Source: Phycisphaeraceae bacterium (GTDB lineage: Bacteria > Planctomycetota > Phycisphaerae > Phycisphaerales > Phycisphaeraceae). From it: a DNA stretch of 34,039 bases. Shown one piece after another: positions 15,377-21,659 of the stretch. The notes beneath the pieces are model-generated. The model worked only from the letters and a program-made list of their open reading frames with translations. It was not told the origin of the DNA and ran no database searches. Numbering within the stretch: the stretch's first letter is position 1; every line of letters begins with the position of its first letter. The DNA is taken from positions 1 through 34,039 of the forward strand of contig JADLAP010000004.1 in NCBI GenBank assembly GCA_020848195.1, in the 5' to 3' direction. The position numbers and the translations under genes are program-made.

Positions 15377-16420
15377 TCATTCCATCCGCACCTGTCGCAG
15401 CACGTCGCTCAATTGTGCTTCCGTGCTGATCTCCCGGATCACCGCCGGATTTTCGGTCCAGTCGATCGTGCCGAAGAACAGCCGGTTGCGATCCCCGTGC
15501 CAGCGGAAATAGCACACGAACCAGCATTCCCCGGACGTCGCGATCCGTTCGATGGACAGCGGCGTGGGACACGGAACACGCAGCTCCGGGCTGGGAACCG
15601 TTCCCGGCGTGTCGCAGACAAACCGGAACGTGCGAACATCCCCGGGCGAAAAGGACAACGGATTGTCCGACAACGCATATGCGGCACGAAATCCCGCCAG
15701 CTTCGGTCCGTAGTCATTCATCCACAACACATACCGGCCGCCAAGCGGATGAACGGAACACGACTCGGCGGCGGAGCCGGGAATCCTGTTGAGCGCGATG
15801 ACATCGGGCAGAGGTTCCCACGTCACCATGTCCCGGCTGGCGCAAGCACACACGCAAGCCCCGTCGTGGCCGGTGTAGAGCAGAACGGTTTGCCCCTGAT
15901 GATCGAACACGAACGGATCGCGGCCGACGGCGGCGCGGATCGGACCCTGTTCCCATCGCGTCCATCGTTGCAAATCCGACGAGGTGGCGTAGGAGATGAA
16001 CACATCCTCGCCGCCGCTGCCCATATAGAACATGTAGTAGACGCCGAGCCGCTGATAGACGTATGGGGCCCAGACGTGTGCGTTTTCCCATGGCCGGTCG
16101 CCGACGGCCAGCGGCATGGGATGGCGAATCCAATGGCAATAGTCCGTCGTGCTGGCGTGACCGAAGGAGATTTCGTTGCCGGTGACCCAGCAGACTTCGC
16201 CCGGCCTGCCGTCAATGTGGAACAGATGCAGGCGACCATCGACCCGGATGACGCCAAAGTCCTTGACGTAGCCGCCGGGCGGCGCGTAGCCGATCGACAG
16301 AAAATCCCGGTCTGGAAAGTGGTAGTCCTCCGCCTTCGCATGAAGCCGAACGCCCGGATGGATATTGAACTGCTTGGACAGCCTCTGGACTTCTTTTTCA
16401 TTCCATGCCATGAGGGACAA
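15377..16420 (-). CDS. Glycoside hydrolase-like five-bladed beta-propeller protein (GH32/GH43 superfamily)
   Basis: KDFGVIRVDGRLHLFHI, GRDPFVFDHQGQTVLLYTGHD (RDP-like) and ESCSVHPLGGRYVLWMND blocks; probable start MAWNEKE. Confidence 0.7.
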   Translation of the reverse strand: MSLMAWNEKEVQRLSKQFNIHPGVRLHAKAEDYHFPDRDFLSIGYAPPGGYVKDFGVIRVDGRLHLFHIDGRPGEVCWVTGNEISFGHASTTDYCHWIRHPMPLAVGDRPWENAHVWAPYVYQRLGVYYMFYMGSGGEDVFISYATSSDLQRWTRWEQGPIRAAVGRDPFVFDHQGQTVLLYTGHDGACVCACASRDMVTWEPLPDVIALNRIPGSAAESCSVHPLGGRYVLWMNDYGPKLAGFRAAYALSDNPLSFSPGDVRTFRFVCDTPGTVPSPELRVPCPTPLSIERIATSGECWFVCYFRWHGDRNRLFFGTIDWTENPAVIREISTEAQLSDVLRQVRME

Positions 16421-16478
16421 CCTATGCCATTGAACCTCTGTTCGGTGCAGCCCGCGGGACCATCCATCGGGATCAGCA

Positions 16479-18014
16479 TCAGCCCGCCACCAGCTTCGCC
16501 ATCAGGTCGAACTCACCGGCCAGCGCGCCGTACAGCCGCTGGTACTGGGCGTGATGTTTGGCGTACAGGGCGGCGAGCTTGCGGTTGGGCTTGAGTTTTT
16601 CCGTTTCGTGGATGACCGCCTTGCACGCCTGGGGCACGTTCTTCCAGACGCCGGCTCCGACGCCGGCGAGGATGGCCACGCCATACGCGGGGCCTTCCTG
16701 GGCGTTGATGGTCGCCACGGGTTTGCCGTAGATGTCCGCCTGAAGCTGACGCCAGAAGCTGGACCTTGCGCCGCCGCCGGAGAGTCGTACGGTGTTGACG
16801 GCGATGCCCATGCCGTCCATCACCTGCAGGGCGTCGGCCATGCCGAAGGTGACGCCCTCCAGCACGGATCGCACGAGCATGGGACGGTTGTGCCGGCTGG
16901 TCAGGCCGATCCATCCGCCGCGTGCGTTGGGATTGGCATACGGACATCGTTCGCCGGTCAGATAGGGCAGGAAGAACAGCCCTTCGCAGCCCGCGGGGGC
17001 TTTGTCCGCCTCGGCGATCAGCAGTTCGTACGGATCGACCTTGCGTTTTTTCGCTTCCGCCAGTTCCACGCGGGCCAGATGGTTGCGGAACCACTGGAAC
17101 GAGCCGCCGGCGGCGAGCATGCAGCCGAACACGCACCACTTGCCCTCCACTGCCGCGCACATGGTGTGTACGCGCCCCTGCGGGTCGTAGGTTGGCTTGT
17201 CGGCGTGAGCGAAGACGACGCCGCTGGTGCCGAGGGTGGCGCTGACGATGCCGGAGGCGACGATGCCGTTGCCCACCGCGCCGGCCGGCTGATCGCCGCT
17301 GCCGCCGACGACGGGCGTTCCCTTTTTCAGCCCCATCGCCGCCGCCGCCGCCGCGTGGATTTCACCACTGACGACATGCGACTCGAAGCACCGCGGCATC
17401 AGGGCGGAATCGATTTCCAGCATCGACAGCACATCCTTGTTCCACGCCCGCTTGCGGACATCGAGCAGCAGCGTGCCGGAGGCGTCGCCGACTTCCGTGG
17501 CGTACTGGCCGGTCATGCAATAGCGGATGTAGTCCTTGGGCAGCAGGATGTGTTTGGTCTTGTCGTAGACTTTCGGTTCATGCTGACGGACCCAGAGGAT
17601 TTTGGGTGCGGTGAAGCCGGTGAGCGCCGGATTGCCGACCATGTCGATAAGCTTGGCCCGACCGCCGGCCTTGGCTTCGATCCGGGCGCATTGTTCGCTG
17701 GTGCGTTGATCGTTCCACAGCAGCGCGGGGCGAAGGGGTTTGTCGCCGTCGGCGAGGAACACCGAGCCGTGCATCTGGCCGGAGAGTCCCACGGCAATCA
17801 CCTGCTCGGCCTTGACTTTGGCTTTCTTCATCACGGCTTTCGTGGCCTGACAGGTCGCCTGCCACCACTGGCGCGGGTCCTGTTCCGACCAGCCTGGACG
17901 GGGGGAATACAGGTCATGTTCCGCGGTGGCGGTGGCGTAGACCTTGCCTTTTGTGTCGCAGATGAGCGTTTTGGTGCCGGACGTTCCGATGTCGATGCCG
18001 AGCAGGTAGGCCAT
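16479..18014 (-). CDS. xylB: Xylulokinase (FGGY carbohydrate kinase)
   Basis: MAYLLGIDIGTSGTKTLICD, VGLSGQMHGSVFL, LLWNDQRTSEQCARI, VGGSGDQPAGAVGNGIV, LTGERCPYANPNARGGWIGL, RLSGGGARSSFWRQLQADIYG. Confidence 0.93.
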   Translation of the reverse strand: MAYLLGIDIGTSGTKTLICDTKGKVYATATAEHDLYSPRPGWSEQDPRQWWQATCQATKAVMKKAKVKAEQVIAVGLSGQMHGSVFLADGDKPLRPALLWNDQRTSEQCARIEAKAGGRAKLIDMVGNPALTGFTAPKILWVRQHEPKVYDKTKHILLPKDYIRYCMTGQYATEVGDASGTLLLDVRKRAWNKDVLSMLEIDSALMPRCFESHVVSGEIHAAAAAAMGLKKGTPVVGGSGDQPAGAVGNGIVASGIVSATLGTSGVVFAHADKPTYDPQGRVHTMCAAVEGKWCVFGCMLAAGGSFQWFRNHLARVELAEAKKRKVDPYELLIAEADKAPAGCEGLFFLPYLTGERCPYANPNARGGWIGLTSRHNRPMLVRSVLEGVTFGMADALQVMDGMGIAVNTVRLSGGGARSSFWRQLQADIYGKPVATINAQEGPAYGVAILAGVGAGVWKNVPQACKAVIHETEKLKPNRKLAALYAKHHAQYQRLYGALAGEFDLMAKLVAG

Positions 18015-18154: not shown

Positions 18155-19462
18155 ATGCGAACGATGCGAGGGGGCATGGAGTTTGAGTCCGGGGAGATGG
18201 TTGAGATGTCTCAACCGCCGGAGCGTCTGGCGACGGCGAAGCTGCGATGGCGTTTGCGTCATCGGCCGGAAGTGCCCATTGGCCAGATCATGGAATCGGG
18301 TCAGCCGCTGACGAAACCGACGGATCCGCGTTACGGCGGGCAGTCCTCGCCGTTCGACGCGAAACTGGAAGACGTGCGGGAATGCGTCGAAGACGACGGC
18401 GGCTGGGAGGTATCCCTCGTTCCGCAGGAGCCGGACGCGCCGACGAGCATCTCGCTTCCCGCGCCGCGAACGCGTCAGCTTGACCCGTGGCTGGACCTGA
18501 TCCGGCTGCATGGCCCGTGGGACGACCAGGACGGCGGCGTGGGGCTGGTGGCCCAGATGGAAGCCGCGAAGCTGACCCGCGCGGAAACCGTGTTGTGCGT
18601 CGGCGTGGACGAGTTTCCGCCCTATCCTCACCACACCAGCCTGCTGCGCAGCTTTCCTGATGCCGCGGTGATGGGACTGCGGCTGATGAGCGACCTGGTC
18701 GGTGCGTCGGCCCCGGTGATGGTGATCGGCCCGGATGGCTCGCTGCGGCAGGATCTGCGAGGCCGATGCGTGGATCAGTGGGTGAAACTGGTGACGACGG
18801 AAGGCGTGTACCCGCAGGCCGACCCGACGCTGGCGGTATGGTGCGCCGCCAAGGGCAAACGAAAGCTCGCGCCGGGCCGCAACCCCATGGAACAACGTGT
18901 GGTGGTGATAGGGCCGTGGACGGCGATCCGCCTGGGTCGCTGGCTCTCGCGGGACCGGCTGGACATGGTGCGTCCCTTGTGGATCGGCTGGCCGGAGCGC
19001 GACGCGCTGATGCACGCCGCATGGGTTTGGCCGGGGCAGTCCGCTTTCACCCTGCACACGCGACTCGCCGCGGAAACGCATGGCCACGAGGGCGTGCTCG
19101 TGCGGGGGCATCCCCTGACTGGACAGCGACTGATCCCGGAAGAAGCCGGAGCGAATCCGTTTGCCTCCATCGAGGAAGCGGAGCTGATTACGGTCTGCCG
19201 TCCAGGCCCGGCGGTGACGCCTTCGGCGTGCATTTCGTGTTCCTGGTGCGCCCAGGCGTGTCCGACCTCGCTGAGGCCGGCACGGATGTACCGGCGTGCC
19301 CAGGCCCCCGGACGCGATCTGACGCTGGCCGAATCGCTGCAATGGTGCGTGGACTGCGGCCTGTGCACGCAGGTATGTCCCTCTTCCCTGCCGCTGGCGG
19401 CGACATTCCGCACCGCCCGGCGGCGCTTGGCGAAAATGATCCGCCAGTTGGAGCCGTCATGA
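18155..19462 (+). CDS. RnfC-like ferredoxin-type protein (divergent)
   Basis: C-terminal two 4Fe-4S motifs CISCSWCAQACP and CVDCGLCTQVCPSSLPLAATFR matching RnfC architecture; the GGAGFP-type motif and AECEPY motif of RnfC are not present. Confidence 0.75.
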   Translation: MRTMRGGMEFESGEMVEMSQPPERLATAKLRWRLRHRPEVPIGQIMESGQPLTKPTDPRYGGQSSPFDAKLEDVRECVEDDGGWEVSLVPQEPDAPTSISLPAPRTRQLDPWLDLIRLHGPWDDQDGGVGLVAQMEAAKLTRAETVLCVGVDEFPPYPHHTSLLRSFPDAAVMGLRLMSDLVGASAPVMVIGPDGSLRQDLRGRCVDQWVKLVTTEGVYPQADPTLAVWCAAKGKRKLAPGRNPMEQRVVVIGPWTAIRLGRWLSRDRLDMVRPLWIGWPERDALMHAAWVWPGQSAFTLHTRLAAETHGHEGVLVRGHPLTGQRLIPEEAGANPFASIEEAELITVCRPGPAVTPSACISCSWCAQACPTSLRPARMYRRAQAPGRDLTLAESLQWCVDCGLCTQVCPSSLPLAATFRTARRRLAKMIRQLEPS

Positions 19463-20676
19463 CCGCGGACGCGACCAACACGAAGCCCGCAGCCTCGCCC
19501 TCGGCCGCAAAGCCCGGGAAGCCGCTCCGACGCGCCAAGTCGGATCCGCCCTGGCTCGGGCCGTTCGTGACGCGGAAATCGGTCGACAACCGCTGGCTGT
19601 TCGTGGGCGAGACGATGACCGTCGCGGCCATGGGATTCTTCGGTTTCCCCGGCGCTTCGCAGGTGCTGACCACCGCGACGACGGCCTTCGCCGTGTTTCT
19701 GCTGATCTCCATCATCATGCAACTTCTCCAGCCCAACGTGGCGATGGAGAGCATGCGTCAGGCCGTGGCCCAGGGTCTGATCCTCGGCGCGCTGATGCCG
19801 GTGACCGCCAGCCTGTGGCGCAAGGCGATGACCGGCGCGTTTCTCGGGTTGGCGCTGCACCTCTGCGGCCGATGCCGATCGGTGCGGGTGCATCCGATCG
19901 CCGCGGCGATGCTCGCCGGATGGCTGGCGCCGATGATCTTCAGCGGCGGTCATCCGTTGCATCAGGCGCTCTTTGAAGCAGGCTTTCCGCCCGCGGTGCT
20001 CAGGCCCGACCGGATGTTCGTCGGCGCGATCGAAAGCCATGCGAAAGTCGATCCGTTCACGTCATGGTGGAACGCCGTCGGCGAAACGCAGCATCACGAC
20101 GCGGTGCTGCGTCCCGTGCCGTTCGATCGCCTGATCCGGGACCAGGTCACGATCCTCCAGCACCCGTCGCAGTTGGCGAACATGCTGGTGGCGGGCGAAC
20201 TGCCCCGCGTGGTGGAACTGGTCATCGGCTGCGTCCCCGGCCCGCTGGGCGCGACAAGCGTGGGATTGATCCTTCTGCTCGGATTGATGCTGATGATGTG
20301 GCGGATGGCCTGGCTGTCGCTCGCCGTGACGATCTGCATCTCCGCGGCGATCGCGCTGCAGGCGATGCCCCTGGCCGGGGATGGCGGACATACTGTGGCG
20401 TTCTGGCTGCTGGCGGACATGACGCCGACGACGGCGATGACGTATGTGGGCTATCTGCTGCTGACCGGGCCCCTGCTGTCGATCGCGCTGCTGCTGGCGC
20501 CACAGGGCGCGCCCATGACGCGACTGGGCCGGCTGATCTACGGCATCATCATCGGCGCGGGCGTCGTGGCCGGTCCGTGGTGGTTCCAGGCCCCGTCCGC
20601 GGGATTCATCGGTCTGGCCGTCGCCGGATGCCTCGCCCGGCCTCTGGACGCGGTGCGCCGCATCGGTTTGCACTGA
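19459..20676 (+). CDS. RnfD/NqrB-like integral membrane protein (divergent)
   Basis: ATG at 19459 overlaps RnfC-like stop (ATGA); multi-TM; segments resembling RnfD (VIGCVPGPLGATSVGLILLLG, RLGRLIYGIIIGAG). The longer ORF from 18766 is antecedent frame only. Confidence 0.6.
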   Translation: MTADATNTKPAASPSAAKPGKPLRRAKSDPPWLGPFVTRKSVDNRWLFVGETMTVAAMGFFGFPGASQVLTTATTAFAVFLLISIIMQLLQPNVAMESMRQAVAQGLILGALMPVTASLWRKAMTGAFLGLALHLCGRCRSVRVHPIAAAMLAGWLAPMIFSGGHPLHQALFEAGFPPAVLRPDRMFVGAIESHAKVDPFTSWWNAVGETQHHDAVLRPVPFDRLIRDQVTILQHPSQLANMLVAGELPRVVELVIGCVPGPLGATSVGLILLLGLMLMMWRMAWLSLAVTICISAAIALQAMPLAGDGGHTVAFWLLADMTPTTAMTYVGYLLLTGPLLSIALLLAPQGAPMTRLGRLIYGIIIGAGVVAGPWWFQAPSAGFIGLAVAGCLARPLDAVRRIGLH

Positions 20677-20733: not shown

Positions 20734-21021
20734 ATGACACGGAACCTCTTCCGTTATGCAATGGTCTGGATGGTGATCGCGGGCCTGTTGCTGATGTCCG
20801 CGGGTTGTGAAACCAAGGCACAGACGGGCACGCTGGTGGGCGCGGGCGCGGGCGCGGCCGCCGGAGCGGGCATCGGAGCCGGCGTCGGCAGCGTCAACGG
20901 CAGCGCCGGGCGCGGCGCGCTGATCGGCGCGGGCGCCGGAGCCGCCATCGGCGCGCTCGGAGGCTATCTCATCGGCAATGAAGCCGACAAGAGCCAACGA
21001 CGCGAGGCCAACAGCTACTGA
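20734..21021 (+). CDS. Glycine-zipper lipoprotein
   Basis: Start MTRNLFRYAMVWMVIAGLLLMSAGCETK (lipobox) and GTLVGAGAGAAAGAGIGAGVGSVNG...GALIGAGAGAAIGALGGYLIG; SD-like GGAGATA upstream. Confidence 0.85.
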   Translation: MTRNLFRYAMVWMVIAGLLLMSAGCETKAQTGTLVGAGAGAAAGAGIGAGVGSVNGSAGRGALIGAGAGAAIGALGGYLIGNEADKSQRREANSY

Positions 21022-21659
21022 TCCTCGTCCGGCTTCGGCAGATGCGTCGATTCCCGGCTCCACAGCCCCACGCGCTGCTGTCGGGCCGTCTGCTCCAGCA
21101 TGTCGTACCGCGCCTCCAGGTCGTGCGCGAATCGCCGGTCCACTCTGGCCAGACCCGCCAGCACCAGTTCCTCATTGATCGTCTGGCCGTCCGGCAGCGT
21201 CACGAACGCCAGCAATCGGCCGTACCGATCCCGCATCCGATGCTGCTGCAGATGCAGCGTCACCGGCTGCTGATCGCACCGCTTCCGCGTCAACTCCGTG
21301 GCTTCGTTCGCCCACGGCTCGGCCGGCGTGTCCCTGTACGCATTGGGCATCTCCGGGCAGTCGACCGCCCACAGCCGGATGCGCGTGGTGGCGCGAGACC
21401 CGTCGGATCGCTCGATGTCGATGGTGTCGCCGTCGATGACGTGATGGACGAGAAAGGTCCGGCCCTGATAGCGGGACCAGTCATCGTCCTGCGCCAGCAA
21501 CAGGCCTCGCCGGTCCAGAACGATCAGGACGCCCAGCACGAGCAGGCCCGCGAGAATCAGCGTCGCGCGCAGCCGGCTCTTGCGGAGAACGTAGGCGGTC
21601 AGGGGCCATCGCCGCGAAGGCGCGTCGAGACGAATCCGCGCTCGACCCGGTCGCGCCAC
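21015..21659 (-). CDS. Thermonuclease (SNase-like) family protein
   Basis: HHVIDGDTIDIERSDGSRATTRIRLWAVDCPE...DRYGRLLAFVTLPDGQTINEELVLAGLARV; N-terminal TM segment. Confidence 0.85.
   Translation of the reverse strand: MARPGRARIRLDAPSRRWPLTAYVLRKSRLRATLILAGLLVLGVLIVLDRRGLLLAQDDDWSRYQGRTFLVHHVIDGDTIDIERSDGSRATTRIRLWAVDCPEMPNAYRDTPAEPWANEATELTRKRCDQQPVTLHLQQHRMRDRYGRLLAFVTLPDGQTINEELVLAGLARVDRRFAHDLEARYDMLEQTARQQRVGLWSRESTHLPKPDEDQ

Follow-up and report, generated by a model that had tools for sequence, protein, structure and literature searches.

In a group of Phycisphaeraceae (Planctomycetota), two modified proteins of the Rnf respiratory complex persist as a gene pair on their own; our analysis suggests that they form a minimal membrane electron-transfer device working without NADH or the usual attached flavin. 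The Rnf complex comprises six or so proteins (RnfABCDGE), and electrons in Rnf and Nqr are thought to pass the [2Fe-2S] cluster of RnfA/E, two covalent FMNs, then the riboflavin of RnfD and, in Rnf only, RnfC as well. A naturally occurring module of the RnfC-like and RnfD-like proteins (hereafter C and D) without RnfA/E, covalent FMNs and the NAD chemistry of RnfC would isolate the last leg of this path, and could show what RnfD is able to do by itself, for instance whether covalent FMN is required and whether ions can be moved. For Phycisphaerae, a class of which few members are in culture, the pair would be an additional respiratory component, as yet uncharacterised.

The gene pair and its distribution

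The window, i.e. the whole stretch of 34,039 nucleotides that was analysed, is one whole contig (G000:C5) of a genome in 404 contigs (3.77 Mb, 84% complete). As anticipated by the original prediction, which had been made from the sequence of the window, it carries two genes that share an ATGA. The features of the locus are as follows:

18155-19462, plus strand: gene C, an RnfC-fold protein of 435 aa with two C-terminal [4Fe-4S] motifs and without the FMN/NADH motif
19229-19381, plus strand: double [4Fe-4S] domain of C, residues C359-P409 of 435, matching Fer4 families, with invariant cysteines
19459-20676, plus strand: gene D, an RnfD/NqrB-fold integral membrane protein of 405 aa
19459-19462, plus strand: ATGA overlap of the C stop and the D start (nine of the 17 adjacent pairs overlap by 4 bp)
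19981-20208, plus strand: enlarged loop of D before Thr266 (approximately residues 175-250), with conserved L181, G189, W203, D214 and A215
20254-20256, plus strand: Thr266 of D (PGPLGATS), corresponding to the flavinylation threonine of RnfD; relatives have T, S, G or V here
21015-21659, minus strand: SNase-like gene downstream of the pair (PF00565)
Downstream of the pair: gene for a glycine-zipper protein (PF13488 match)

The last two genes had been called thermonuclease-like and glycine-zipper from the sequence, and both domain matches agree. Among the neighbours examined, no further rnf or nqr gene adjoins C-D, again as predicted. Divergently upstream (15377-18014, minus strand) lie a glycoside-hydrolase-like gene, with matches to GH32/GH43/GH130, and an FGGY sugar kinase, which look like unrelated sugar metabolism.

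Protein searches covered 151 genomes of the order, including 45 sampled, not exhaustive, genomes of the window's own family, Phycisphaeraceae (f1). D was recovered in 22 of the 151 genomes, 19 of them in f1 and three in a second family (f6). Named relatives place the group in Phycisphaeraceae and Phycisphaerales; searched with D alone they gave no match, and alignment of C worked. Complete chromosomes are among the carriers ('Planctomycetes bacterium syqfu', G031; ZRK34, G025; ZRK32, G055). Recurring across these genomes, the pair is real and not an assembly accident. Of the 21 loci read, one of them the window's, 17 have C directly 5' of D. C was recovered from all carriers but G136 and G030, where D sits at a contig edge. 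Even after the operon has split, C and D are retained together: the genes are about 47 kb apart in G055 and on separate contigs in G058. Flanking genes differ between most genera, and the pair is thus a two-gene unit. Conversely, C was found in none of the seven f1 genomes without D that were tested, some of which gave weak ferredoxin-type matches.

Distant pairs occur in other Planctomycetota bins (L059-L062), where D adjoins C. The distant versions of C, two more of which were found through C itself (L063 and L064), are shorter and lack the N-terminal region. At L063:5509-6732, a short C homologue with no adjoining D lies downstream of an smpB-like gene, so a C-only version may exist. A phylum-wide search with D gave strong matches in f1 and f6 only; the many weak matches (E down to about 1e-15), mainly over the second half of D, are read, collectively and not case by case, as probable ordinary RnfD/NqrB.

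Folds, iron-sulfur clusters and lost motifs

The RnfC models TIGR01945 and PRK05035 match C over its C-terminal ferredoxin region only and well under the family cut-offs (TIGR01945, 62.6 bits against a cut-off of 245.95 bits), and the Complex1_51K match to the window protein is sub-threshold. Since C fails the full RnfC cut-off and matches mostly in the ferredoxin domain, it is by sequence alone a divergent relative. The single-chain structure model of C (pLDDT 90) has RnfC of Azotobacter as its best match (8ahx_C, TM 0.82), followed by other RnfC and NqrA, and the predicted structure thereby confirms the RnfC fold for the full-length protein. Eight cysteines form two CxxCxxCxxxCP motifs (C359/362/365/369 and C398/401/404/408), and all eight are invariant in 17 close homologues and in the alignment with six distant ones. 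The RnfC fold and the two C-terminal [4Fe-4S] motifs of Rnf are thus present, and the FMN/NAD(H) motif (GxGGAxFP, CECEP) is missing: in a joint alignment, GxGGAAFPxxVK and C/AECEP are kept in seven canonical RnfC of the same order and in 0 of the 24 pair C proteins. The earlier description of C as a double-4Fe-4S, RnfC-like protein therefore stands for clusters and fold but must not imply an NADH-linked protein, since the NADH/FMN motif has been lost. In G103, C (L030:9688-11493, 601 aa) is extended at the C-terminus and also carries a long insertion, rich in Pro, Ala and Thr, ahead of the ferredoxin domain.

For D, the assignment as an RnfD/NqrB-like membrane protein was likewise upheld. PF03116 (NQR2_RnfD_RnfE) is the sole domain passing its cut-off (38.4 bits against 27.7), all 15 significant matches to the single-chain structure model (pLDDT 80) are RnfD/NqrB, and transporter matches lie at E above 0.1; the model thus confirms the predicted RnfD/NqrB fold. 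The segment preceding the flavinylation site exceeds its canonical RnfD counterpart by about 35 residues and shows conserved positions of its own; by analogy with RnfD, this enlarged loop would be extracytoplasmic. At the flavinylation position, the 21 sequences of the order have T in 15, S in two, G in three and V in one. The window protein has Thr, as do 14 of the 20 other D proteins of the order; Gly or Val replaces it in G016, G049, G106 and G121, and Gly stands there in all four distant homologues examined. The six canonical RnfD proteins compared all have T. This drift to T/S/G/V is in line with the absence of ApbE described below. With the cluster cysteines invariant, the FMN/NADH motif gone and the flavinylation threonine adrift, selection appears to have kept the Fe-S wire, dropped the NAD chemistry and relaxed the covalent flavin.

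Missing subunits, ApbE and genomic context

In these comparisons, a family is called absent when nothing came within reach of its Pfam model. The RnfA/RnfE/NqrD/NqrE family (PF02508) was found in nine genomes of the order and in 0 of the 22 carriers, including the single-contig carriers G025, G031, G039, G049 and G055; the same searches did detect the control genomes with Rnf/Nqr. The FMN_bind domain of RnfG/NqrC (PF04205) is absent from the window's own genome and from all 19 f1 carriers; G010 and G025 have one unlinked match each. The RnfB FeS domain (PF04060) is absent from the own genome and most f1 carriers, and single weak matches fall in frames of 527-570 aa in G031, G043, G052, G058, G112 and G136. 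As the own genome is incomplete, these absences rest mainly on the relatives, five of them single-contig. The presence of other Rnf/Nqr subunits elsewhere in the genome was rejected by the PF02508, FMN_bind and PF04060 searches.

ApbE was found in 0 of the 19 f1 carriers and in 16 other f1 genomes, and ApbE-dependent flavinylation in the f1 carriers was therefore rejected; all three f6 carriers have ApbE. The non-overlap of ApbE and the pair in f1 (16 versus 19 of 45) has a chance p of 8e-6 over genomes and 0.003 over genera, both inflated by shared ancestry. Nearly all f1 genomes with ApbE have no RnfA/E.

Two findings that would have spoken against the original prediction, a complete rnf or nqr operon elsewhere in the genome or an unrelated family for either protein, did not materialise: PF02508 occurs in none of the 22 pair genomes, the own genome included, and C and D belong by fold to the families of RnfC and RnfD. 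Conservation of the pair without the other subunits in related genomes was borne out. The loss of the NADH/FMN motif of C, and the apparent dispensability of both the flavin-attachment threonine of D and ApbE, go beyond what had been observed from the window.

Complex I (NuoF/NuoD) is nearly universal in f1, most carriers included. The pair as a replacement for complex I was accordingly rejected, and most carriers have the pair besides complex I. NadA, NadB and complex I occur in carriers and non-carriers alike. In the carrier G094 (95% complete), NuoD was not detected and the sole NuoF-type match is the C gene itself; NuoD was also not found in the incomplete own genome. In several genera the quinolinate synthase gene nadA stands upstream of C in divergent orientation, next to it or within a few kb (L032:6217-7422, minus strand, with equivalents in G011, G016, G049, G103, G106 and G115). 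Because neither nadA nor nadB follows the distribution of the pair, a link to NAD synthesis was rejected, and the proximity is probably an ancestral gene order. Neighbourhoods vary, and no genomic link of the pair to a donor or acceptor was found in them.

Proposed electron path, alternatives and known systems

We judge it an even proposition that the pair descends by reduction from the RnfC-RnfD end of an Rnf/Nqr-type complex, its two subunits working without the others and passing electrons from an Fe-S donor through the clusters of C and through D to an acceptor. A little short of even confidence, we propose an undescribed minimal two-protein RnfC+RnfD membrane oxidoreductase that would carry electrons from an Fe-S donor to a quinone or extracytoplasmic acceptor without NADH chemistry, ApbE-type covalent flavin or an RnfA/E core. 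We infer that C and D form a complex, C being seated on the cytoplasmic face of D as RnfC is on RnfD. C would take electrons from a soluble Fe-S donor, ferredoxin likeliest and not NADH, because its FMN/NADH motif is gone. Electrons would then move through the two [4Fe-4S] clusters of C into D, probably by way of a bound flavin, not attached by ApbE, at the RnfD riboflavin/FMN site, and would finally reach either menaquinone or an extracytoplasmic acceptor that docks on the enlarged loop of D. Removal of the FMN end of RnfC and of the RnfA/E/G end would leave this short path from C clusters to D flavin; the known two-way redox ion pump is not expected, since RnfA/E and RnfG are missing. A cytoplasmic Fe-S donor with a quinone or extracytoplasmic partner as acceptor is the simplest working model.

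Against an unattached flavin counts the threonine kept at the flavinylation site by most carriers despite the lack of ApbE. D might instead be covalently flavinylated by an unrecognised transferase, with electrons from C-D reaching an extracytoplasmic partner through FMN. We think this improbable: in its favour, Thr persists within a PGxxGATS-type motif that aligns with the RnfD site in 15 of the 21 D proteins, the window's included, and ApbE occurs in the three f6 carriers, but it is missing from every f1 carrier and Gly or Val stands in for Thr in four carriers as well as in the distant homologues. In a second alternative, D is a channel for ions or solutes, free of flavin, or else a membrane anchor, and C serves it as a redox sensor or regulator of the Fe-S type, with no electron wire. 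RnfD/NqrB are related to ammonium/urea transporters (PMC12174285), the flavinylation threonine is not fixed and C has lost its catalytic motif; however, C retains both clusters with the spacing of RnfC, a better fit to electron transfer than to one-cluster sensing, and the significant structural matches of D are RnfD/NqrB only, with transporters at E above 0.1. This reading, too, is unlikely.

We likewise give low odds to a C-D that is not self-sufficient and acts as an accessory module at the input or output of another respiratory complex, for instance complex I or a hydrogenase. NuoD occurs in nearly all f1 genomes, which would offer most carriers a larger partner, yet no neighbourhood examined links the pair to complex I or hydrogenase genes, and NuoD does not track the pair, being missing in G094 and in the incomplete own genome. 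Very improbable, and largely refuted, is a complete Rnf/Nqr complex of which C and D are dispersed or duplicated subunits. Both folds are Rnf/Nqr subunit folds, the two genes are dispersed in G055 and G058, and the own genome is just 84% complete; set against this, PF02508 is missing from all carriers, single-contig genomes included, FMN_bind and ApbE are absent in f1 carriers although the same searches detected the controls, and C has no NADH/FMN motif.

Compared with known systems, the pair passes as a relative of RnfC and RnfD and fails several of the Rnf-complex features tested. It resembles Rnf in both folds, in the domain order of C, in the double [4Fe-4S] domain and in the C-D gene order, which is that of Rnf operons of the same order. 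In contrast to Rnf, it stands without RnfA, E and G, with the RnfB-type FeS domain missing in its own genome and in most carriers; C is without the FMN/NADH motif, and D appears to have no obligatory flavinylation threonine and has a longer loop before that site. In RNF, the two clusters of RnfC bridge the riboflavin of RnfD and the FMN of RnfC (PMC12174285). Na+-NQR is similar in that NqrA has the fold of C and likewise no FMN/NADH chemistry, and NqrB has the fold of D; it differs in that NqrA has no redox cofactors (PMC12174285), whereas C has eight cluster cysteines, and NqrD/E (PF02508) and NqrC (FMN_bind) are absent for the pair. No description of an RnfC-RnfD-only pair was found in the open-access literature searched; the search being limited, the novelty of the pair is provisional.

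A further comparison is with the NQR/RNF-like systems of an earlier survey (PMC8238504), whose NqrB/RnfD membrane domains carry a fused NqrF-type NAD domain and occur together with ApbE. Like the pair, these have a stand-alone NqrB/RnfD-type membrane domain and a proposed one-way electron transfer. They carry a NAD-binding domain and accompany ApbE and extracytosolic FMN-binding domains (PMC8238504), whereas in D only PF03116 passes its cut-off, without an NqrF-type fusion, the own genome, like the other f1 carriers, has no ApbE, and the partner of D is a separate Fe-S, RnfC-like protein.
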